From positions 1-32,203 of the forward strand of contig JAUIFD010000021.1 of assembly GCA_030429485.1 (NCBI GenBank): 32,203 nucleotides of DNA, read 5' to 3'. A model generated the notes under the pieces. The model saw nothing but the letters and a program-made list of their open reading frames with translations, was not told the origin of the DNA and did not search any database. Position 1 is the first letter of the stretch. Each line of letters begins with the position of its first letter. The DNA is from Phycisphaerae bacterium. Lineage in GTDB: Bacteria > Planctomycetota > Phycisphaerae > Phycisphaerales > UBA1924. This document shows, piece by piece, positions 15,116 through 32,203 of the stretch. A program made the translations under genes and the position numbers.

Positions 15116-16348
15116 CTACTCAAACACGATCTTCTCGCGCAGACGCCCCTGCTTGTCGCGCGCCCATTCCAGGCGCAGACTCGGGCGCACGCCCTCGGAC
15201 ACGACCCCCGGCGGCAGGCCCTTCGACGCTGGCGACACCATGCGCAAGCTCGCGGGCGCCGGATAGACCCGTGGTGAGCCTTCGGGTGGAAAGTACCGCG
15301 GGTCGTCGGCGCGCCGCACAAGCCGCACCGCGTGGTCATACGTGACGAGCTGGAACCCGCCTCGTCGGAGGAGTTCGCCCAGGTCGTCGATATTGTCCGG
15401 CACGCGGTCCGGATCGCGATCGTGCAGTGCGCGTATGCCCGCCGCAATGAACTCAAGGCGATCCGCGGTCGTCGCGAGCTGGTCCGGCTTCATCCCGCCG
15501 CCCGCGTACTTGCGCCACTCACTCTCGAGCCCGCCGATCCCGCGCCGACCAAACGCAGCCTGCTCCGCGTCCTCGAATGACTTGCCATCCGAGAGCCCCG
15601 CAAGCAGCCGACGAAACCGCCCCTCGTACTTCCCACCATCCGCGTGCATCAAGAAGTGCACGACGCCCCACGATTGCCAGTACATCGTCCGCGTCGACGT
15701 GTGCCCCGACGCGACGCGCGAGACCCAGTCTTTCGGCGTCAACGCGAACAGCTCCCCAAGCGGGATCAACCCGTCCGCGTCCGACAGCTCCTTCAAGTAC
15801 TCCGCGCGCTCCGACGGCACGAGCCCCGTGATGAAGCGCGTCCGCGTCAGGATCGAGTGCTCGAAGTAACCCGCGAGCCCCTCGTCGAGCCAGCGCGGCA
15901 GCTCTGTCGCCAGCTCCTCGTACGCGAACTGATGGAAGCCCTCGTGCTGCATCGTGCGCAGCGTCTGCATGTACGACCCGCCGTTGACGAAGCCCGCCAT
16001 CGCCGACTCGTCACCGCGATGGAAGAACATGCCTCCGGTGCCCGCCGCGTTGATGCCGCGTTTGGCGAGGAGACCCGCATACTCCTCGCGCGTGTCGAGC
16101 AGGTAGATGCGGGCGCGCTCCTCGGCATCGCGCCGGGCACCGCGTTTGAACCACTGCATGTACGCCGAATAGGCCCGATCCATGTGGCGCGCGACCTCGG
16201 TTGCGGTCTCGCGGTCCGCGTCGGAGTGCACCTCCACCTTCGCGGCCCGATAGATCGGAAGCGCCCGCTCCTGAGCCCACGCCCGCGGCAGGCCGACCAC
16301 GCCCACGACAAGCCCGAGAACGCCGACAATGACCGCGCCGCATCGCAT
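15116..16348 (-). CDS. Secreted HExxH peptidase, DUF1570-type
   Basis: A 410-aa exported protein. The start MRCGAVIVGVLGLVVGVVGL and a RAWAQE cleavage region (22-27) form a Sec signal peptide. The mature part carries a gluzincin-like zinc site: HEGFH (His135, Glu136, His139) followed after about 16 residues by RWLDEGLAGYFE with Glu156 as likely third ligand. The arrangement resembles the DUF1570/peptidase-MA-like group frequent in planctomycetes; the substrate is unknown. The active-site residues are intact, unlike those in the giant protein at 24279. The later domain (residues about 230-410) has no motif I recognise. Start chosen at the ATG giving the signal peptide; no clear Shine-Dalgarno, and an in-frame start further upstream would precede the signal with polar sequence. 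Confidence 0.82.
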   Translation of the reverse strand: MRCGAVIVGVLGLVVGVVGLPRAWAQERALPIYRAAKVEVHSDADRETATEVARHMDRAYSAYMQWFKRGARRDAEERARIYLLDTREEYAGLLAKRGINAAGTGGMFFHRGDESAMAGFVNGGSYMQTLRTMQHEGFHQFAYEELATELPRWLDEGLAGYFEHSILTRTRFITGLVPSERAEYLKELSDADGLIPLGELFALTPKDWVSRVASGHTSTRTMYWQSWGVVHFLMHADGGKYEGRFRRLLAGLSDGKSFEDAEQAAFGRRGIGGLESEWRKYAGGGMKPDQLATTADRLEFIAAGIRALHDRDPDRVPDNIDDLGELLRRGGFQLVTYDHAVRLVRRADDPRYFPPEGSPRVYPAPASLRMVSPASKGLPPGVVSEGVRPSLRLEWARDKQGRLREKIVFE

Positions 16349-16437
16349 ACCAGAGGAGCGTATCGGGCAGGAGAAGGGGGCCGCGTTACCGCCGCCGGCG
16401 CGAGCGCAGGCGATAAGGCCGCCGCACGCTCCCAATG

Positions 16438-17028
16438 TCAGGATGCGGACGGTGCTTTCCGCCCGCGCCGACAAGTGCCGATCCCGGCCATCGAGATCAA
16501 CCCGAGCACACCAGACGCCGGAACCTGATAGATGCGAGCGCCAACAACTGTGGTCGGCACACTTGTGCGATCAAACGCGTCGTCACTGAGATACACCGAC
16601 GCCCCCGGGGTCGGCGAGCTTGCGTTGACCTCCGCCGTGATATCCACGTAACCAAATCCAGCGCTCACGTGCGTGTACTGCGCAAGCGGGATCGGGTTAA
16701 GCGCCGTACCGCCGATCAACAACGGCACGTTATAGGTCTGGACGTCCTCCCACCCACCGTCACCCGTCGCGACCGGCGGAAGGGAAAGATTGCCGACACC
16801 ATTCAGGAAAGCGAACTCGGTCGCCTGCGCACCAGCACCAACAACCTTGATATCAAACCAGTAGGCCGCGAAGGCAACCGCATCGGACACCTCGGCGACG
16901 ATGGTGACCGTCGTCGTGCCGCCGAACGTCGCGATCACCTCGTCTTCCGGAATGAACCGAATCGTGACGCTCTGCGCATCAGCAGCCGAGCACACCCCGG
17001 CGACAAAGACACTCGCGATGCGCTTCAT
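16438..17028 (-). CDS. PEP-CTERM paralog 1
   Basis: A 196-aa member of the three-gene exported family. Signal peptide MKRIASVFVAGVCSAADA, mature start QSVTI shared with both paralogs. The body shares TTTVTIVAEVSDAVAF, AYWFDI, FLNGVG and the VPTTVVGARI block with paralog 2. The C-terminus is a sorting tail: QVPASG, hydrophobic VLGLISMAGIG, then CRRGRK, with six extra residues after it. Most divergent of the three: the NFPPALGG motif is replaced by NVPLLIGG. ATG at 17028 has GAGGAG about 8 bases upstream (17037-17042). Its upstream region from 17045 on is an inverted fragment of another paralog, so the original promoter may be lost and expression may depend on read-through from paralog 2. Confidence 0.82.
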   Translation of the reverse strand: MKRIASVFVAGVCSAADAQSVTIRFIPEDEVIATFGGTTTVTIVAEVSDAVAFAAYWFDIKVVGAGAQATEFAFLNGVGNLSLPPVATGDGGWEDVQTYNVPLLIGGTALNPIPLAQYTHVSAGFGYVDITAEVNASSPTPGASVYLSDDAFDRTSVPTTVVGARIYQVPASGVLGLISMAGIGTCRRGRKAPSAS

Positions 17029-21264: not shown

Positions 21265-22121
21265 GAGCGTGGTGGGCGCCCGCGCGCCGCTCCGTTCTTC
21301 GACTTATCCCCCCCGCCCTTTCGCGAGCCGACCGCCTCGCGCAGGAGCCTGAGCTCCCGCCGATCGAGCTCGCGCCACTCGCCGCGGGCGAGCCCCTTGA
21401 GCTGCAACGGCCCGATCGCCACCCGCTCGAGCTTCTTCACAGGCCGCCCCACCGCCGCCAGCATGCGGCGCACCTGGCGGTTGCGTCCTTCCTTGAGCGT
21501 CAGGCGAAGCGACGTACGCTCGCGATCACGGCGGACAACCTCGAGCTTCACGTGCGAGGCCCGCACGGCGCCGACGGTTCGCCCTTCCTTCCGCTCCGCC
21601 AGATAGATGCCCTGCTCGAGCGCCTCGATCTCCTCATCCTCGAGCCGGCCCTTGACCACGACGTGGTAGGTCTTCTCGACGCCGTAGCGGGGGTGGGTCA
21701 GGCGGTTGGCGAGTTCGCCGTCGTTGGTCAGGAGCACCAGCCCCGTCGTGTCGAAGTCGAGCCGGCCGACCGGATAGAGGCGCACGCCCGAAGGGTGGTC
21801 CACGAGGTCGAGCACGGTGCGGCGCGCCGCCCCCGGCTCGTCCATCACGGTCGAGAGCGTGCGCGCGGGCTTGTTGAGCATCACGTAGATGTGCCGCTCG
21901 CCCTTGGGGAGCGGACGACCATCGACGGTGACCGTGTCCTCCGCCGGATCGATGAGCACCGGGAGTTCTCGGACGATCTCGCCGTTCACCCGGACGCGCC
22001 CTTCCTGAATCAGCAGTTCCGCGTGCCGGCGCGACGACAGCCCCGCGTCCGCGATCACACGCTGCAGGCGCACGCGACCCGTGCGCCCCTGTGCACCAGA
22101 AGTTCGGCGTGCGGGGGGCAT
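21261..22121 (-). CDS. RsuA/RluB-family pseudouridine synthase
   Basis: Converts specific uridines in rRNA to pseudouridine. An S4 RNA-binding domain comes first (LQRVIADAGLSSRRHAELLI, 19-38; GRVRVNG, 41-47), then the catalytic domain with GRLDFDTTGLVLLTNDG (119-135; catalytic Asp122), HPRYGVEKTYHV and KEGRNRQVRRM. These features fit RluB or the 16S-specific RsuA; the choice cannot be made from sequence alone, although 23S-type RluB is more common. A basic tail (SRKGGGDKSKNG, then GRPPRS) closes the protein at 286 aa. ATG at 22121 is chosen; a GTG at 22160 would add 13 residues and neither has a good ribosome site. Divergent from the coiled-coil gene, coupled downstream to the YihY gene. Confidence 0.91.
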   Translation of the reverse strand: MPPARRTSGAQGRTGRVRLQRVIADAGLSSRRHAELLIQEGRVRVNGEIVRELPVLIDPAEDTVTVDGRPLPKGERHIYVMLNKPARTLSTVMDEPGAARRTVLDLVDHPSGVRLYPVGRLDFDTTGLVLLTNDGELANRLTHPRYGVEKTYHVVVKGRLEDEEIEALEQGIYLAERKEGRTVGAVRASHVKLEVVRRDRERTSLRLTLKEGRNRQVRRMLAAVGRPVKKLERVAIGPLQLKGLARGEWRELDRRELRLLREAVGSRKGGGDKSKNGAARGRPPRS

Positions 22122-22215
22122 CAGAGCCAAGTGTACGCGGACGTTGCGCACGCTCGGCACAAATCACGCGTCAGCGTGCGCACGGACGATGTGCCCCGGC
22201 GCAAAGGAGTGCCGC

Positions 22216-24180
22216 ATGAGCCGCATGGATGAGACGATGGTCGTGGATGACGTGTTCCTGAGCCCCCGGGTCGTGGACTCGGCGACCTATGAGGAGCTCG
22301 CGGGCTCGCTCCGGGATGTTCTGCAGGAAGCCGTCAAGCAACGCTCGGCGCTCGAGGGCGCCACCCGTGCCGCCCACGAGGAGCTCGCCTCGCTCAAGAA
22401 GCTCGCGCATGACTTGCGCCAGAAGCTCGCGCCGGCCGCCAAGCTCCTCCCCACGATCGACGAGCGCGTGGCGCGAGCGGACGCGAGGATCGCCAACCTC
22501 ACAGATACCGAGGCCATCGCCTCGCTCGTCGAGCCCGTGCTCCAGGAGGCCGCCTCGCGCCTCGCCAGCGAGCACGCGGACCGGATCCGCGAGGAAGTCG
22601 GCTCGCTCGACGCCCGCCTGGCCCAGACCAAGGCCGCAAGCGAATCGCTCACCGAACTCCACGGAACCGGCGCCGACCTGATCGCGGGGTTCGAGGCTCG
22701 CATCGCGGCAATGGAGACCCGCCTTGCGGACGCGGAGAACGGCGCCGAGCAGGCGACGCAGCGTGTCGAGCGGGCCATCGAGCGTGCGGGCGAGGTGGGA
22801 AGGCTCGGTGACCGGGCCGCGCAGGCGGCTGACGAGCTGCGTGACGTGCTCTCGTGCGTCGAGCGGGACAGCGAGCGCCACGCCGGCGCGCTCGAAGAGC
22901 GTGCGAACCAGCTCCTCGAAACGCTCGGCGCTCGCACCGACGAGTTGATCGAACAGAGCCACGACCGGATCCGCGCGGTGCTCTCGGTCGCGGAAGACCG
23001 TGCGGCCCGTCTGGCGAAGGAAGCGATGGACCGCGTGGAGCGGGACACCGCGGAGTGCCTCAGCACCCACCTCGCAAGCGCGGAAGCTCAGTTGCGGACG
23101 AGCGCGGCGAAGACCGAGGCGCAGGCACGGGAATGCGAGGCGGCGATCGACGCGAAGGGGCGCGCGGTGTTCGCGGAGATCGAGCAAGACGCCAAGACGC
23201 TTCAGGGTGAAATCACCGGCGAAGCCGCGCGCCGCCGAGCGGATCTTGAACTCGCTGCTCGGACCTTGGAGGAGGCGCGTGCGCAGCAGCGTTCCGAGGC
23301 GGAGGCGATGCTCGCTCGGGCGGAGGAGCGGGTCAGAGAGGCATCCGAGCGTGCCGCGACCCGCGTACGCGTGATCGGGGACCAGGCCGAAGTGCGTGCC
23401 GAGCATGCTCGCCAGAGCGTGCAGGACGAAGGGGAGGAGACCGCCCGGCGCCTGACAACCCTCGTCGAACAGGACCTTGAGTCTCGCCTCTGGGAAAGTG
23501 TGGCGCAGGTCGAGGAGGACACGGTCGAACGACTCGGCCTCGCCGTTCGCACGCTGGAAGCCCAACTGCAGGAAGAAGCGCACCGCATCGAGAGCCTTGC
23601 CCAGCGCTGCCGGGCGCCGGGCGAGGAGATCGAGGCGCTCGTGGAGTCGGCGCAAATCCGGGCGAGAGAGCGCACGTCGGCTGTCGTCAACGAATGTGCC
23701 GCCGAGATCGAGTCAGCACTCGACCGTCTCTCGCTGCGGCTCTCGCAGGCGGTCGGACAGGCCGAGGGCGAGGGAGCGGGGCGCGTGGCGGAAGTCGAGG
23801 CCCGCCTGGAGACGGTCCTCGCCGACGTCGAACGCAAGTGTGAATCTGTGCGTACGCGGTTCCTCGACGAGCTCAATGGCACGTCGCAAGAGGCGGGCGC
23901 ATACGCCGACCGGACCGAAGCTCGCCTCGGATCGCTCGACCTCCGGGCGAAGAGCATCTCCGACACACTCGCCCGGAAGCTGGACGAACTGAACGACGAG
24001 GCCTCGCGCCTGGCGGATCAGTCGGATCTCGCGGAGCTGATCGCGGGTGCACGGGCACGGCGGGCCAAGGCTGCGGAGAAGCGCACCACGCGCGAGACCA
24101 AGTCGCCTCGCCCGTCGACCAAGGGACGCGGTACCGGGTCTCGTCGCACCCCCGGCGGGCGTGGTAGCCGTGCCGCGTAG
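22216..24180 (+). CDS. Long coiled-coil protein with basic C-terminal tail
   Basis: A 654-aa protein with no family I can name. From residue about 20 to 615 it is almost entirely Ala, Glu, Arg, Leu, Asp and Gln with heptad-like hydrophobic spacing, with few Pro, Trp, Phe or Tyr, so a very long coiled coil or helical rod is expected. The first 20 residues (MSRMDETMVVDDVFLSPRVV) are non-helical in character and could be a docking motif. The last 35 residues are a Lys/Arg/Ser/Gly tail (TKGRGTGSRRTPGGRGSRAA) suited to bind nucleic acid or acidic partners. There is no signal peptide or membrane segment, so it is probably cytoplasmic. ATG at 22216 has AAGGAGT (22204-22210) five bases upstream, a strong site. 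Apart from SMC-like or cytoskeletal roles, no function can be argued; there is no ATPase motif. Confidence 0.8.
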   Translation: MSRMDETMVVDDVFLSPRVVDSATYEELAGSLRDVLQEAVKQRSALEGATRAAHEELASLKKLAHDLRQKLAPAAKLLPTIDERVARADARIANLTDTEAIASLVEPVLQEAASRLASEHADRIREEVGSLDARLAQTKAASESLTELHGTGADLIAGFEARIAAMETRLADAENGAEQATQRVERAIERAGEVGRLGDRAAQAADELRDVLSCVERDSERHAGALEERANQLLETLGARTDELIEQSHDRIRAVLSVAEDRAARLAKEAMDRVERDTAECLSTHLASAEAQLRTSAAKTEAQARECEAAIDAKGRAVFAEIEQDAKTLQGEITGEAARRRADLELAARTLEEARAQQRSEAEAMLARAEERVREASERAATRVRVIGDQAEVRAEHARQSVQDEGEETARRLTTLVEQDLESRLWESVAQVEEDTVERLGLAVRTLEAQLQEEAHRIESLAQRCRAPGEEIEALVESAQIRARERTSAVVNECAAEIESALDRLSLRLSQAVGQAEGEGAGRVAEVEARLETVLADVERKCESVRTRFLDELNGTSQEAGAYADRTEARLGSLDLRAKSISDTLARKLDELNDEASRLADQSDLAELIAGARARRAKAAEKRTTRETKSPRPSTKGRGTGSRRTPGGRGSRAA

Positions 24181-24278: not shown

Positions 24279-27200
24279 TCAATCGTCCTGCGTGATCAGG
24301 TCGATCAGCAGCCCGGAGTTCTGCAGTCCGAGGTAGAAGTCGGTGTTCGCGACGGTGTCGGCTTCGAAGGACAGCGCCCGATCGGCGTTGGTGAATCCGA
24401 ACGTCTGCCCGCCCGAGACATCGATGGTGGGGCTATCCGCCGCCATGATGTCGTTGACGTTGCCGGTGCCACCGAGGTCCGACCCGATACGGAGCCCCAT
24501 GAGTTCGCCGATGCGGCGTCCCACCGCCGCGGTGAGCGACGAGGTGAACGCCTCGATGCCCGCCTCGCTCGGTGAGAATCCGAACAGGGCGAACGACGGG
24601 AGGAACACCACACCCTCGTCCGATCGATCGGCATTGAACGGATCGGAGTGCTGCGCATATCCGAGCGGCTCGTCGAAGAACGCCGCGCCGGCGAGTCCGG
24701 CGCCGAAGCCGGAGAACGACTGCGTCGTGGCGCCGTTGATCGGATCGCTCGACGACGTGAGGAAGATCGTCGAGAACGGTTCGAACTCGAAGTCGCGTGG
24801 GTTGGTCGAGATGTTCACGTCGAGCCCGGCATCGTCGAAGATGGCCTCCAGGTTCGAGATCACACTGTCAATGAAGTACTGCGAGAGCGACTGCCCGTCG
24901 AGCCGCTCGCCGACGAACCCGAGCACGCCTGTGTCGAACTCGTCGAGCGAGGTGGTCTGCCCCGCGACCTGGAGCCAGTCGATCTCGCCACCGCGCGTCT
25001 CGAGGAAGACGTTCTGCTTCCGCTCGACGAACTCCGCCGCGCCATCGGTGACCACCTCGATCGCGTAGTCGGTGTTGTAGACACCCTGCACGTACAGGGC
25101 GTACGAGGCGTTGCGCCCAGCGAGGTCCTGACGCTCGGGTGCGATGAACTCGATGAAGAAATCGCCGTTCTCGTCGAAGCCGTAGGTGGCGTTGTCGCCC
25201 TGGGCGAGCGTGCCGGGTGTACCGCCGTTGGGCGAGAAATCGCTCGGCGAGAACACCAGGATCGCGTTGTCGATCGCATCGGACGATGTCGTATCGAAGA
25301 GACCGAACTGGACACGTCCGACGTAATCGATGACCGCCTGGTTGGGATCGCGTGAGCCAAGGTCGGCGCCCAGGTCGGCGAGCTTGATCGTCGCTCGGAT
25401 CACCGTTCCCGCGGTGATCGGGTTGTGGTTGTTGAGATGGAACACATCGATATCGGGCGCGACCGTGCCCGGCAATCCCGCGAACCCAGGATCGCCGATC
25501 GAGGTGTTCACCGTGACGACTCGGCGGCCGGTGGTATCCGAGGTGGAGACGCCACCGTCCCCGTCCTCGCCCGAGACCGAGTCGTCGCTCGTGCCCGCGA
25601 CGCCATCGGCGCCGGTGTCGAGCCTGAAGACATATGCGCCGCGGGTGATCGAGGCGAAGTCGTCGCCCGTGCCGAAGCTCCCGTCCGGCCCGGCGAACTC
25701 GGAGGGCAGCGGGGCGCGAACCAGGTTGCGCCCGTCGCCCGCGTCGGTCGACGCGTCGAATCCGGTGTCACCATCATCGAAGACCTGCACCGTGAAGGCG
25801 TAGCTGCCGAGGGTGTTGTTGGCGGCGCCGACGAAGTTGACCCCGGTTCCGCTCACCAGATTCTCGATGTTGCCGTTGCCGATGGCGATGTAGTAGGTCC
25901 CTGTCTCCTTGACGAGGATGTTCTCCGTCTCGGTGAAGGTATCGCCCGATTCGTCGATCTGCCCCGGCAAACGGATGACCGTTGACGTCTCGGAGAACGT
26001 GTCGATCAACTCGCCGTCCGGGTTCAGAATGGCCCGCGTCGCGCTGAGCGCCGCGCCCTCCATGAGCCCGAGGCGGAGGATCTGTCCAGCTTGCAGCGTG
26101 ATCGAGTAGACGTCGATGTCCCCGCGGAACGGGAAGAGGATCGTGTCGTTGTCCGGGTGGTCGCCGATCGTGCCACGGACCTGGAAGATCGCGTTGGCGT
26201 CGGGCAGCCCATCCGGTGTGACGTTGTTGTCCAAGACGATGTCGAGGCTCGCGGGACCGTAGAAATCAATGTCGGCCGACTGCGTGCCGGAGCTCACGGT
26301 CACCGTGCTCGGCGCGAGCTTATCGCCCGGATCACCGACGAAGGTGTCCTGCGAGTAGTTGTCGCCCTGCTGAGCGCGGCCGTCGCCATCGCCGTCGAGA
26401 CGAGCGGAGACCGACTGGGCGCGGATCAGCTCAGCGTTGAGTTCGAAGCGGTAGGCGCCCGGTCCGGGACGACCCGGCAACTGAGGCAGATCACGACGCG
26501 TCACCTCGGTTGAGAACGTGATGTAGAGCACGTCCTCTGCATCGTCGTAGTTGAGGAAGTAGTCCACGCCGTTGATGAGCGAGATGGGCGCTTCGCCCGT
26601 ACCCCGCACCTCGGAAACAACGAGCCCAACATCGAACGTCGCCTCGTCCATGGGCTGGTTGAACTCGATCCGTGCCGTGAAGACGCCGCTCTGCTCGGAG
26701 ACCGTGAGGGACGTGACGGCGATCGGAAGCGGATCGATGTCGACACGCTCGATCTCCAGGTTGCGATCGTTGATCGCGTTCGCACCCCCCGCGGTGACGG
26801 TGCCGAGCCTGCCCGTCGAGAAGATCCGGAATGACTCGGTATCGCGGTTGGAGCCGATGATCTGCCCGCCCACCGATACCGGGCCGAGCAAGGCGCGACC
26901 GGAAGTGACCGTGTCGTCGCCGGTGCCGAAGAACCCGTCGGTTCCGCGGAGGCCGCCGCCCGCGATGTCGGAGCGGACCAGATCACCCGTAATGGTGATC
27001 AACTGCGACACGCCCGAGGTCGCCCGGTCCGCGTCAAACGGGTTGTCGGTGCCGTCGGCGTCGAACTCCGCGTTGTCGCCAAGATCACCGCCGATGAGGA
27101 TCTGCGAATCGACCACGTCACCCTCGACGGTCAGGAAGTCGAGGTAGTCGCTCGCGGAGATGCGCGACTCGAAGATGCCCGCGGCGGTGACGTTCGCCAG

Positions 27201-30200
27201 CGCCGTGCCCGCTCGGATGCGGGCGTTATCGATCACCCCGCCAATGGTGAGGTGCCCGATGGTCCGATCGACGTTCATCGAGGCGCGGACGCCGCCGCCG
27301 ATGGTCATGAAGCCCGACGAGTAGATATCGATCCGAGTCTCCTCAGCGACCGACGGGTCAGGGTCGGCGAGCGTGAGATCACCCACGTTGCCCGAGATGG
27401 TGACGTAGGCCGCGTTCTTCGCGGTGAGGTACGCCCCCTCAAACGAGCCCGTGATGAGGTTGGTGATGTGCTGCCCGACCTTCAGCGAGCCCGTGCCACG
27501 GAAGTGCCCGGTGATGATGGTGTCGGCATAGGCGTCGACATAGATGTCCGAATCGCCCTCGAGGTTCGCCCGGACGACCAGAGAGCGGATCGAGGCGCTG
27601 TTGCGCGACACGATGTCGAAATCGGTGAGCGTCAAGTCCTCGTTGGTCGCGGTGACCTCAAGCGTCGTCGAGTAGTTGGACTCGCCGAAGATCACGCGGC
27701 TCGTTGCGTCGTCCCAGAACGCGCGGCCGGCGCCGTTGAAGAGGATCGTGCCAGAACCCGACCCGTTCGAGAACGAGAACGGCGTGCCCGCCACGAGCTC
27801 GGTCCCGGTGTAGCCGCGGGCCGCGTCTTCGTCGTTGATAAGGACGGCGAAGCCGCCAGTCTCAGCACGCCCGCCGGCGCTCGCCTCAGTCGCAAGCGAC
27901 TCGGAGTAAACCGAGGCGTTGACGACCCAGCCGTTGGTGTTGACGTTGCGAACGAAAGAAACGCCCGGCTCGGCCAGCTCGTCCCCAGTGTTGTAGACGC
28001 CGTCCGCGCCGGCGGTCTGCCCGGCGACGATGGTGGTGTTGGTCAGGCTGCCCGCGGCGAACACCGTCTCAATGAAGCCAGAGTTCGTCACGTCGGCGTT
28101 GTCGCCGACTCCGCCCGGGCGCGCATCGGCGCCGAAGGACCGGACGCCGGCGATGATCGTCACCCCGGCGATGTGTGTGCCCGCGATCACGCGGTAGATC
28201 GAGTCGCGAGCGCTGATGACAGAGCTGCCCGGACCGGAGAGTCCGTCTTCCTGGATGCTCGCCGAAGAGGAGATCGTCCCGATGGCCCAACCGGCGTGGA
28301 TGGTCACCTCGAACATCGATCCACCGGTGGTGACAACGCGTCCGAGGTTGCGCCCGGCGCTGATGCTCGGCCCGTCGATCGCAGACGACGCGGCGACACC
28401 GGGGGGGAGCTGGTTGCGCAGGTTGTCGTAGGTGTCGGCGGACGACATGCACGGGTTGACGCCGATATCGCCGAACACGCCGTCGGGGGTCGCGGTGACA
28501 GTGACGAAGTAGAGCGTGTAATCGGCGTGGATATCGCCGTACAGATTGCCGAACATGATGTCGACGGTGACCAGATCGCCGTCGTAGGCGGCGATGAGGT
28601 TGTCGGCAAGGAACGAACCGCCGAAGACCGTGACCGACCCAATGCCGCCCGAGTACGAGATCACGTTGCCGTCGAAATCGCCGACGACATAGACCGTCTC
28701 GATGCGTCCCGAAGCGATAATCGAGCCCTGACCGAGCTGATCGAACCCTGGACGGTTCACGACCGGCCCGAGCGTGATCGAGTTAATGGTCTGCCCGACC
28801 CGGAGATCGGAGAAGAGCTGTGCGCCCGCCTCCAGCGAGTCGAGCGTGCCACGCACCACGAGCTGGCCCGGATCGCTCCGACGCCCGACATGACGCCCGA
28901 CGATCAGGCGATCGACATTGGCCGCGAAGTCGGTGGAGGAGAGCAGATCGCGTGCAGCGATGATCTCGGTGACCGAGCCCGCGCTCGTGGTCGTCCGGAT
29001 GAACGCCTCGATGTCACCCTCGGTGGTCTCGATCCGCTCGATCGGACCGGACGAGGTGATCGAACCGGTGATGCGTGTCCGCGCCGTGATGCGATCGATG
29101 CGCCCCTGAGGCCCGGTGACGTTGATGTTCGTGTTGTAGATCTCGTCGGTCACCTCGAGCAAGACGAGCGGGCCCGACGCGAACAACTCACTCGCGCGGA
29201 GTGACCCGCCGACCGAGATGTCCTCGAACTGCCCGCCGACGAAGCTGCTCGCGACAATGTTGCGGGTCGCGATGACGTCGGTCGCGTTGTTATCAACATC
29301 GAGATCGACACGGACGAAATCGCGAGCCGCGAGCCGCCCCGTGATCGAACCGAGCACGTCGATAACAAGATCGCTGATGTCGCCGGCAAGCCCGATGGTC
29401 TCGATCGTCTCGATGTCCTGGCCCACCAGGATCTGGTTCAGGCGGAACTCGAGGAACTCGCCGGTGATCGTGGAGTTGCGGAACTCCACCGCGCGGATAC
29501 GTCCCACATCCGCGAGCGCGTCGATCACGGTCGCGTCGTAGACGCCGCTGCGAAGCTCGAAGCTGTCCAGCGTGCCGGTGGTGATCCGGCTGCCGATGAA
29601 GTCGGCCTGGTCGCCCTGGATGTCGGCGATGTCACCGACGATGACGGGGTTATCCGGGAAACCCGCCGCCGAGAGCCAGAAGTCGTCAAAGAGAAACGTA
29701 CCGATCTCAAGATCGACGGCGTCGGCATTGAAGAGCTGGATGCGATCGATCCCACCGACCTCGGCGAATCCATCGAGACCCGGAGGCCCAGAGTTTGCCA
29801 GATCGATGTTGTTCGCGATAATCAGGCCGGAGAGCTGCGCCCCCTCGTGCGCACGTCCGTCGACCGTCAGCTCGCGAATCTCGTCTTCTGCAAAGACGCC
29901 CGCGGTCGCGAAGGGCGTCTGTGCCGCAGCGGCGATGCCCATGCCAAGATCGATCTGGTTCACGATGAACGCGTAGACCTGCCCGACGAGCCCGTGGAAC
30001 TCGCCCTCCGGCGCATCCGCGTCGCTGTCAATGATCAGCTCGATCAACTCGCCGGCCTGGTCCTGCAGGATCAGATCGCCCACAGAGCCCGAAACTTCAA
30101 CAAGCGTCACGCTTCCCGTACGGATGACCGCGCCATCGAGGTACCCGTCGAGCGGCGAGCCGATGTCGTCGAGGTAGGCGTTGTCGGGTGCGCCGTTCAC

Positions 30201-32203
30201 GTCGGTGATCGGACGGAAGGTCCCGCCGTTCCACCCGCCGTACATCGCACCTTCGTTGATGCCGAGCCCATCGAGCACGCCCGTCCCAGACCCACTCGCG
30301 AGCCCGAGCCAAGGCCCGAGGCGTGAAGGCCCGTAGCTGACCAGCTGCGTGCTGCCCAAGTTGCCATCGACGATCTCGAGCCGGTCCAGACCCACGACGT
30401 CGATCGCCACGATATCGCCGCCCGGCGTGTTGTTGCGGATGCGATCGAAGGCGGCGCCGCCCGTCTGGTCGATGCGCCACACATCGACTTCGACGTCGCC
30501 GTCGATATCGATCTCGGACTGCTCGTCTGCGCCCTCAACAATGATGCGCCCGATGGAGATCGGCGCACCGTTGCCGTTCGGCGAGCCCTGGCTCAGGATG
30601 CGCAGACGAATGCCACCCGTTAGATCGAGGTCATCGATCTGCGCGATCGCGACGCCCTGCGACGAATCGATCGAGAGCACGCGGATCACGCCGACCGCCT
30701 GATCGTTCGCCGCGCCCTCGGCGGAGATGAGCACGCGACCGCCCGCGTCATCGACAAACAGGACCGGCTGCCCGCCGAGAAGATCGAACGACGTATCCAC
30801 GCCGTTGCCGATATCGGTGAGCATGACGTCGGCGAACCGCAGGTCAGAGTCCTGCCCGAGAACGATGTCCGGATCACCGCCGAAGAACCCGATCTCGTCA
30901 TCGCCTGGCGAGTCACCGACGTCACCTGTCGGGACGGAATCCTGACTGACGAGGAACGCGCCGACCGTCGATCCCGGCGCGGTCGTGAGTGAGAAGACCT
31001 CCGCGTAGACGTGGTTGCCAACGCGGATCATGCCGATATCGCCGCCGGGCCCTTCCGCATCGAGCCCTGAACGGACCGAGAGCCCGAGCCCGAGCGGACG
31101 CTCTTCCTCGTCCTGATCGACGCCGATCGCGCCCCGGATGTCGATCCGACCGATGCGCCCACCGACATCGAGCACGGTCCCGCCGAGCACGTCGCCCTCG
31201 GCGCCGGAGAACCCGCCGCCGCCGGCAACAGGCGAAAGACCCGTGACCCAGACTCCGAGGTCCGCTCCAACGGTGAACCGCGGGGCGGTGATGCCAGCGC
31301 CGACCTCGGAACCAGCGAAGAACCCGAAGAGCGATCGCGGCACCGTGATCGCCGCGGCGCCCGTGGTCAGCAGGTCGTCGTCCTCGTCATCCTCGTTGGC
31401 GTTGTTGATGATGCTCGACGGTGAGCCCTCCGAACTATCACCGCCGACGATGCCCGCGCCGGAGATGATCGCTCCGGCGTCACCTCGGGTGAGCGTCACC
31501 GCGCTCGGGAGCCCAAAGCCCAACCCCGCACCGGAGCGAACAAGGCCCATCGTCGTCGACGCCATCCCGGTGAGCACGATCGAGTACGTGAACGGGTTGT
31601 TCAGACCGTCGGAGGCGCTCGTGATGCCCACGCCGGAAACGACGAGGTAATACACGCCCGGCTCGGTGGGCTCGAAGCGGATGAACTGGGTGAGGTCGAG
31701 ACGCTCGGTGAACTGGTTGGCCGCGAGCGTGCGCCCGTCCTGATCAACGATCCTCGCCACCGGCGCCAGACCGCCCGCGAAGTCCTCCGGCGCCAACTCC
31801 ATGAGGATGGGCGTCGAGCCGTCGGAGGCGAACGCGTACACGTCGGCCGGATCGTCGGCGTTGATCGGGTCCGCCCCACCAAGCGACCCGTTGATGCGCA
31901 CACCCGTGCCGAGCGACCCGATCCACTCCGCGTTCAGAATGGAGTCGTTGCGGTAGTTGACGGCGCCGTAAACCACAGGCTGCGAGACGTTCCGGAAGAA
32001 CCCGGTGTCCGCCCCGGGCAGGACGTACGAGAACGCAAAGGAGGAGACCACCGCGGCCTCGCCGTCTTCGGCGTTGGGATCGACCGGCGAAATCGCCTCT
32101 TTCTCGCTGTATGTGAAGGTCGAGAGCGGCGGACGGTTGTCAGGATCGTTGACGTCGCCCAGCACCGTGATGTCGAGCACAGAACGCCCGGCAGCCGAGT
32201 ACT
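24279..32203 (-). CDS. Giant secreted beta-rich protein, 5' end outside window
   Basis: At least 2,640 residues; the frame is open to the right edge (reading YSAAGRS before a GTG at 32180), so the N-terminus and any signal peptide are missing. Numbering here is from that GTG. A PPC-like module spans about 110-205 (DVYAFASDGS ... GVYYLVVSG), followed by an acidic run NEDDEDDD (262-269). From about 290 to 1800 come many short beta-coil repeats of the type IGRIDIRGAIG and VDRLIVGRHVG, pointing to a long beta-helix. Then an Ig-like segment (26290-26715; VFTARIEFNQPMD), a DGDGDGRAQQGD calcium-like loop, and two more PPC-like modules (about 25780-26180 and 25050-25455). DGxxGTxDD-type motifs recur near 26930, 25670 and 25600. 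The last 250 residues resemble a metzincin peptidase, but its zinc motif is RRIGELMGLRI (24486-24518). It ends in ITQDD without a visible sorting tail. Probably a surface or matrix protein; role unknown. Confidence 0.85.
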   Translation of the reverse strand, partial: YSAAGRSVLDITVLGDVNDPDNRPPLSTFTYSEKEAISPVDPNAEDGEAAVVSSFAFSYVLPGADTGFFRNVSQPVVYGAVNYRNDSILNAEWIGSLGTGVRINGSLGGADPINADDPADVYAFASDGSTPILMELAPEDFAGGLAPVARIVDQDGRTLAANQFTERLDLTQFIRFEPTEPGVYYLVVSGVGITSASDGLNNPFTYSIVLTGMASTTMGLVRSGAGLGFGLPSAVTLTRGDAGAIISGAGIVGGDSSEGSPSSIINNANEDDEDDDLLTTGAAAITVPRSLFGFFAGSEVGAGITAPRFTVGADLGVWVTGLSPVAGGGGFSGAEGDVLGGTVLDVGGRIGRIDIRGAIGVDQDEEERPLGLGLSVRSGLDAEGPGGDIGMIRVGNHVYAEVFSLTTAPGSTVGAFLVSQDSVPTGDVGDSPGDDEIGFFGGDPDIVLGQDSDLRFADVMLTDIGNGVDTSFDLLGGQPVLFVDDAGGRVLISAEGAANDQAVGVIRVLSIDSSQGVAIAQIDDLDLTGGIRLRILSQGSPNGNGAPISIGRIIVEGADEQSEIDIDGDVEVDVWRIDQTGGAAFDRIRNNTPGGDIVAIDVVGLDRLEIVDGNLGSTQLVSYGPSRLGPWLGLASGSGTGVLDGLGINEGAMYGGWNGGTFRPITDVNGAPDNAYLDDIGSPLDGYLDGAVIRTGSVTLVEVSGSVGDLILQDQAGELIELIIDSDADAPEGEFHGLVGQVYAFIVNQIDLGMGIAAAAQTPFATAGVFAEDEIRELTVDGRAHEGAQLSGLIIANNIDLANSGPPGLDGFAEVGGIDRIQLFNADAVDLEIGTFLFDDFWLSAAGFPDNPVIVGDIADIQGDQADFIGSRITTGTLDSFELRSGVYDATVIDALADVGRIRAVEFRNSTITGEFLEFRLNQILVGQDIETIETIGLAGDISDLVIDVLGSITGRLAARDFVRVDLDVDNNATDVIATRNIVASSFVGGQFEDISVGGSLRASELFASGPLVLLEVTDEIYNTNINVTGPQGRIDRITARTRITGSITSSGPIERIETTEGDIEAFIRTTTSAGSVTEIIAARDLLSSTDFAANVDRLIVGRHVGRRSDPGQLVVRGTLDSLEAGAQLFSDLRVGQTINSITLGPVVNRPGFDQLGQGSIIASGRIETVYVVGDFDGNVISYSGGIGSVTVFGGSFLADNLIAAYDGDLVTVDIMFGNLYGDIHADYTLYFVTVTATPDGVFGDIGVNPCMSSADTYDNLRNQLPPGVAASSAIDGPSISAGRNLGRVVTTGGSMFEVTIHAGWAIGTISSSASIQEDGLSGPGSSVISARDSIYRVIAGTHIAGVTIIAGVRSFGADARPGGVGDNADVTNSGFIETVFAAGSLTNTTIVAGQTAGADGVYNTGDELAEPGVSFVRNVNTNGWVVNASVYSESLATEASAGGRAETGGFAVLINDEDAARGYTGTELVAGTPFSFSNGSGSGTILFNGAGRAFWDDATSRVIFGESNYSTTLEVTATNEDLTLTDFDIVSRNSASIRSLVVRANLEGDSDIYVDAYADTIITGHFRGTGSLKVGQHITNLITGSFEGAYLTAKNAAYVTISGNVGDLTLADPDPSVAEETRIDIYSSGFMTIGGGVRASMNVDRTIGHLTIGGVIDNARIRAGTALANVTAAGIFESRISASDYLDFLTVEGDVVDSQILIGGDLGDNAEFDADGTDNPFDADRATSGVSQLITITGDLVRSDIAGGGLRGTDGFFGTGDDTVTSGRALLGPVSVGGQIIGSNRDTESFRIFSTGRLGTVTAGGANAINDRNLEIERVDIDPLPIAVTSLTVSEQSGVFTARIEFNQPMDEATFDVGLVVSEVRGTGEAPISLINGVDYFLNYDDAEDVLYITFSTEVTRRDLPQLPGRPGPGAYRFELNAELIRAQSVSARLDGDGDGRAQQGDNYSQDTFVGDPGDKLAPSTVTVSSGTQSADIDFYGPASLDIVLDNNVTPDGLPDANAIFQVRGTIGDHPDNDTILFPFRGDIDVYSITLQAGQILRLGLMEGAALSATRAILNPDGELIDTFSETSTVIRLPGQIDESGDTFTETENILVKETGTYYIAIGNGNIENLVSGTGVNFVGAANNTLGSYAFTVQVFDDGDTGFDASTDAGDGRNLVRAPLPSEFAGPDGSFGTGDDFASITRGAYVFRLDTGADGVAGTSDDSVSGEDGDGGVSTSDTTGRRVVTVNTSIGDPGFAGLPGTVAPDIDVFHLNNHNPITAGTVIRATIKLADLGADLGSRDPNQAVIDYVGRVQFGLFDTTSSDAIDNAILVFSPSDFSPNGGTPGTLAQGDNATYGFDENGDFFIEFIAPERQDLAGRNASYALYVQGVYNTDYAIEVVTDGAAEFVERKQNVFLETRGGEIDWLQVAGQTTSLDEFDTGVLGFVGERLDGQSLSQYFIDSVISNLEAIFDDAGLDVNISTNPRDFEFEPFSTIFLTSSSDPINGATTQSFSGFGAGLAGAAFFDEPLGYAQHSDPFNADRSDEGVVFLPSFALFGFSPSEAGIEAFTSSLTAAVGRRIGELMGLRIGSDLGGTGNVNDIMAADSPTIDVSGGQTFGFTNADRALSFEADTVANTDFYLGLQNSGLLIDLITQDD

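Follow-up and report, generated by a model that had tools for sequence, protein, structure and literature searches.

A probable pseudo-metzincin domain with a replaced zinc site at the C-terminus of giant proteins in Phycisphaerales

Results

Organisation of the locus

The window, by which we mean the whole 32,203-nucleotide stretch of DNA that was analysed, corresponds exactly to one contig (G000:C63) of a Phycisphaerae bacterium, and is occupied at one end by a giant ORF. This ORF has neither a start codon nor an upstream stop, because the contig ends there. Complete relatives of the giant protein are about 3,000-3,460 aa in length, and 34/42 of these carry an N-terminal LEPRxLL-like motif (LEPRQLLF-like or LEPRxLLF-like), which was matched by no NCBIfam model; the window ORF itself lacks the N-terminus. 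We take such an N-terminus to be a mark of surface or exported giant proteins, and the window protein would be described as a beta-helix-type protein that is probably exported. The features of the giant ORF and its C-terminal domain are as follows.

24279..32201, minus strand: giant ORF, 2640 aa, 5' part missing at the contig edge
24282..25016, minus strand: predicted pseudo-metzincin domain (metzincin fold without the zinc site), starting QNVFLET (AlphaFold2, Foldseek, relative L167, HMM homology)
24831..24887, minus strand: first long helix of the domain, model residues 72-90 (AlphaFold2 model)
24618..24644, minus strand: D-x2-N-x4-D block (DPFNADRSD), ahead of the former active-site helix (conservation)
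24501..24566, minus strand: former active-site helix, model residues 179-200 (AlphaFold2 model)
24486..24518, minus strand: RRIGELMGLRI, where HExxHxxGxxH is expected (sequence, alignment)
24435..24455, minus strand: NDIMAAD, Met-turn equivalent (sequence, position)
24291..24317, minus strand: C-terminal helix of the domain, model residues 262-270 (AlphaFold2 model)

We additionally identified a coiled-coil-like ORF (22081-24180, plus strand), whose direction converges with that of the giant gene. About 10 relatives have an ORF of weak similarity at the equivalent position, and a 494-aa frame antisense to the plus-strand ORF is probably spurious. A DUF1570/Peptidase_MA-like ORF (15116-16474, minus strand) contains an intact HEGFH, and probably encodes an unrelated zinc peptidase.

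Within the C-terminal domain, the stretch FTSSLTAAVG precedes RRIGELMGLRI. Both of these, and NDIMAAD, were found where an earlier, sequence-only reading of this DNA had described them, to which we add that they lie on the minus strand. That reading had proposed that every zinc and catalytic residue of a metzincin was replaced, and our results agree: Arg195 and Glu199 occupy the positions of the first and second His, Arg196 that of the catalytic Glu, and Ile205 that of the third His, and a search for another HExxH able to form a zinc site found none in the entire ORF. The last 250 residues contain one His and no Cys, and therefore an ordinary His/Cys zinc site is impossible there. NDIMAAD corresponds to a Met-turn by its position, but the Met itself, although present in the window, is kept in only 31/82 members of the family.

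Homology of the domain to metzincins

Searches with the window protein, and with its last 273 residues, gave nothing above chance in Pfam, NCBIfam or PDB sequences (phmmer), and the domain is unannotated in Pfam and NCBIfam. No match was obtained from a Pfam M10 scan of the window's own genome, or from a profile search (A1) against PDB sequences. As no library family names the domain, its assignment rests on relatives and structure.

An HMM constructed only from the window's family (f1), without active sequences, recovered HExxH-containing orthologues from f4, a sister family within the order, with E-values of 1e-33 to 4e-38, indicating that the metzincin resemblance seen in the sequence-only reading goes beyond a chance motif. 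The same HMM also reached active domains in further giants, those of f5 and f6, at up to 2e-13 (1e-11 to 1e-13), and a profile-profile comparison of f1 against the active members gave a probability of 99.2 and an E-value of 2.7e-19 over 158 columns. The active-member profile in turn matched stromelysin-3, myroilysin, MMP-1, karilysin and adamalysin II in the PDB (best E-value 6e-4), and most active members matched the M10, Reprolysin and DUF4953 families of Pfam, mostly weakly. On these profile comparisons, the homology of the domain to metzincins is independent of the motif.

Predicted structure

An AlphaFold2 model of the window domain, calculated with 46 family sequences, had a pLDDT of 80.7 (>90 in most of the core) and a pTM of 0.81, and that of a short-loop family member (L167) had a pLDDT of 87.0 and a pTM of 0.88. 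The predicted elements are, in order, two strands, a long helix, four strands, a long helix bearing the motif, and a C-terminal helix; the model thereby contains the mixed beta-sheet, the two long helices, of which the second carries the position of the zinc motif, and the C-terminal helix of the metzincin fold, with Foldseek E-values above 1e-3. The top ranks of the Foldseek search against the PDB were held by ADAM-8, an archaeal zinc peptidase (3lmc), MMP-8 and snake venom metalloproteinases, the best E-value being 5e-3 (probability 0.97) and the TM-scores about 0.3-0.5. By itself, the predicted fold is only suggestive of a metzincin. As no E-value passes 1e-3 and the TM-scores are moderate, the fold call leans on sequence homology and on the identity of the top-ranked structures.

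Distribution of the domain and replacement of the zinc site

We searched for relatives in 61 genomes of the same order, including 37 of the same family (the window's own among them). The domain was found in 28/61 of the order genomes and in 21/37 of the same-family genomes, in the latter always in an open frame. An order-wide profile search returned matches in 115/400 genomes, with the strong matches mostly in f1, and a locus search with a narrower alignment returned 49 loci. The named f1 relatives are Phycisphaerales MAGs.

Residues were counted across 82 distinct f1 sequences, none of which (0/82) contained HExxH. The first His column is occupied by Arg in 79/82 and by Gln in 3; the catalytic Glu column by Arg in 70/82, Gln in 6, His in 4 and Thr in 2; and the second His column by Glu in 77/82 and Gln in 5, a uniformity that speaks against drift at the site. 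The third His column usually holds Leu or Ile; other sequences have Thr, Val, Met or Phe, and one has His. The conserved Gly of HExxHxxG (Gly202) is present in 82/82. By conservation, Arg195 (96%) and Glu199 (94%) rank within about the top 30 columns of the domain, Arg196 being conserved at 85%, and the domain as a whole is about as conserved as the remainder of the giant protein.

Active orthologues

Orthologues with an intact HExxHTLGLRH at the same columns were identified in five genomes (L023, L025-L028) of a single f4 genus, g40, in the forms HEVGHTLGLRH, HEAAHTLGLRH or HEVSHTLGLRH (HE[VA][GAS]HTLGLRH). Collinearity between the f4 proteins and the f1 profile extends across nearly the full length (1129 bits), and f1 and f4 therefore have one and the same protein, which in f4 retains the active site and in f1 lacks it.

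We compared columns fixed in at least 17/19 active sequences with the same columns in 45 f1 sequences. The four zinc and catalytic columns were lost in 45/45, and Gly147, Asp153, Asn156, Asp161, Gly202 and Gly258 were kept in 98-100%. Ala190, Asn191 and Val192 of the active-site helix have mostly become Thr, Ala and Ala in f1, indicating that the helix itself was remodelled and not the ligands alone. For close pairs, dN/dS was about 0.03-0.28, similar to that of the active orthologues, values for distant pairs being unreliable due to saturation and high G+C.

The D-x2-N-x4-D block (24618-24644, minus strand) is near-invariant in both active and inactive members. It is possibly a structural metal site, or a site that locks a loop, that has outlived the zinc site.

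Number and history of losses

In a tree built with the motif columns excluded, f1 formed one clade (99/99) with f3 as its sister (98/82), and f4 formed another (99/89) with the isolate PNC21 at its base. Two further inactive versions of the giant protein were observed in L022 and L024 (G038 and G051), with the motifs KELAKTFGLRE and MELGRLMGLRL. These are the motifs of f3 and of PNC21, respectively, and unlike f1 they keep the catalytic Glu and have lost all of the His residues.

Parsimony on the motif-free tree required two losses of the zinc site, although a single clade of all inactive sequences was not rejected by the AU test (p = 0.077). There was accordingly at least one loss, and two or more are likely, because of the branch support and because PNC21 shares its family with the active genus. 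The outgroup giants are all of the active type, and activity was therefore most likely ancestral.

All five g40 genomes with an active giant also encode a second, separate protein of approximately 1,060-1,117 aa, which has its own degenerate metzincin helix with the motif [AS]HYIGRNLGLR[AP]E and the Met-turn SIMNEDI (L129, L130, L131, L133 and L134; for example G055:C32:4410-4778). The replacement sets differ between groups, being RR..E in f1, KE..K in f3, ME..R in PNC21 and HY..R in the second g40 protein.

Discussion

A non-catalytic module derived from a zinc protease

Descent of the domain from a zinc-dependent protease is well supported, making it a pseudo-metzincin, for which we infer a lack of activity. 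On the computed metzincin homology, zinc-site loss, clade-wide replacement residues, intact frames and low dN/dS, we consider it likely (roughly 80%) that the domain is a pseudo-metzincin in which Arg and Glu have replaced the zinc site, and that it now serves as a non-catalytic module. The ancestral giant protein would have ended in a zinc metalloprotease domain. In the ancestor of f1, this domain would have lost every zinc-binding His, three in all, together with the catalytic Glu. The helix would have been re-stabilised without zinc by Arg and Glu (i, i+4) at the first two His positions, while the third came to be occupied mostly by hydrophobic residues. Because the first and second His positions are on one helix, four residues apart, Arg195 and Glu199 probably form an intrahelical salt bridge in place of zinc. 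The fold would be held by purifying selection, and judging from its residues the window domain would have neither peptidase activity nor zinc binding. Its most likely use would be to bind a ligand via the old cleft or surface, or to cap and anchor the C-terminus of a probably exported giant protein.

This is close to what the sequence-only reading had proposed, a pseudoprotease that keeps its fold as a binding or structural domain, in a gene that is not decaying as a whole, and we find that proposal supported, while the role itself is one that we infer. The checks that it had suggested returned a predicted fold that is metzincin-like (best PDB matches being metzincins, with moderate scores), HExxH members with the same full-length architecture, and zinc and catalytic residues consistently missing in one clade.

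Two alternatives would deny the domain either its ancestry or its function, and we give hardly any credence to either. A chance motif in a domain unrelated to metzincins might be suspected from the lack of Pfam, NCBIfam or PDB-sequence matches to the window protein, but is contradicted by the fold and by transitive homology, which links the window's family to the active orthologues at 1e-38 and to the other active giants at 1e-11 to 1e-13, and the active members in turn to PDB sequences of MMPs, adamalysin and myroilysin (best 6e-4). Decay of a functionless domain would account for the missing catalytic residues, but is contradicted by the open frames in relatives, the low dN/dS and the replacement residues fixed across the family, in a domain conserved to about the same extent as the rest of the protein.

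The domain could instead have been repurposed, with Arg-Arg...Glu providing a new zinc-independent activity or ligand site. The conservation of Arg195 and Glu199 at the level of the structural core, and of Arg196 at 85%, would be expected of charges that form a new catalytic or ligand site in the former active-site cleft; nevertheless, a salt bridge accounts for opposite charges at i and i+4 of a helix, and the rare substitutions are conservative (Gln for Arg195 or Glu199), with the changes of Arg196 to Gln, His or Thr suiting packing over chemistry, and we regard this explanation as improbable. We judge equally improbable a role as regulator or decoy, in which the domain would partner an active protease of its own cell, as is known of inactive homologues in some enzyme families. 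Other HExxH metzincins are encoded elsewhere in family genomes (the window's own genome, for example, has such a frame of 1,064 aa on C236), and the f4 genomes contain both an active giant and a different inactive protein; against this, the other HExxH metzincins are distant, with a match limited to a short stretch around HExxH, and no protease is conserved beside the giant gene. Downstream of that gene lie the coiled-coil gene, a gene for an RluD-like pseudouridine synthase and one for a BrkB-like protein. A broader proposal, in which metzincin domains of planctomycete giants repeatedly lost their zinc sites to different residue sets, proteases were recurrently converted into binding modules and Arg-Arg...Glu is itself a new functional centre, either ligand-binding or catalytic without metal, seems doubtful to us, if somewhat less so than these two.

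Comparison with known metzincins and pseudoproteases

Our search of the literature, limited to open-licence papers and as such weak evidence of absence, found no description of a bacterial pseudo-metzincin, and no precedent for a family-wide non-catalytic bacterial metzincin with active orthologues in the same 3,000-aa protein.

In animals, pseudoproteases are a familiar class. Among these, the inactive ADAMs (ADAM2, ADAM11, ADAM22, ADAM23 and UNC-71) are M12 pseudopeptidases (PMC11266112). Like the window domain, they are metzincin homologues in which the zinc ligands and the general-base Glu are substituted, within a multidomain protein, and with a surface location and a non-catalytic role that in our case are presumed. 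They differ in that the window domain is bacterial and lies at the C-terminus of a protein of approximately 3,000 aa; in that f1 has a uniform Arg/Glu pair, whereas the ADAM replacements are varied and often Gln or Leu (PMC11266112); and in that ADAM pseudopeptidases typically keep the Met-turn, the Met of which is retained by a minority of f1.

Of the Pfam metzincins, Reprolysin_3/_5, Peptidase_M10 and DUF4953 (Met-zincin) match active members around the zinc helix, with a best value of 8.5e-07 in one member, whereas the window domain itself matches none. The f5 and f6 giants of Phycisphaerales, with frames of about 1,600 to 19,800 aa, contain a metzincin domain whose zinc helix likewise follows a D..N....DEA block, but differ from the window protein in that all 14 in the tree keep HExxHxxGxxH. 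Open frames that reach about 19,800 aa and include an active-type metzincin domain were observed in f6 genomes (for example G066:C1:500792-501067).

The closest comparison is with the giants of the f4 genus g40 (L023, L025-L028), which share the same full-length protein, C-terminal domain and LEPRxLL-type N-terminus, and differ by their intact HExxHTLGLRH. The two form a natural before-and-after pair, for considering how a zinc fold persists without zinc, and what role a dead protease plays on a bacterial giant protein.
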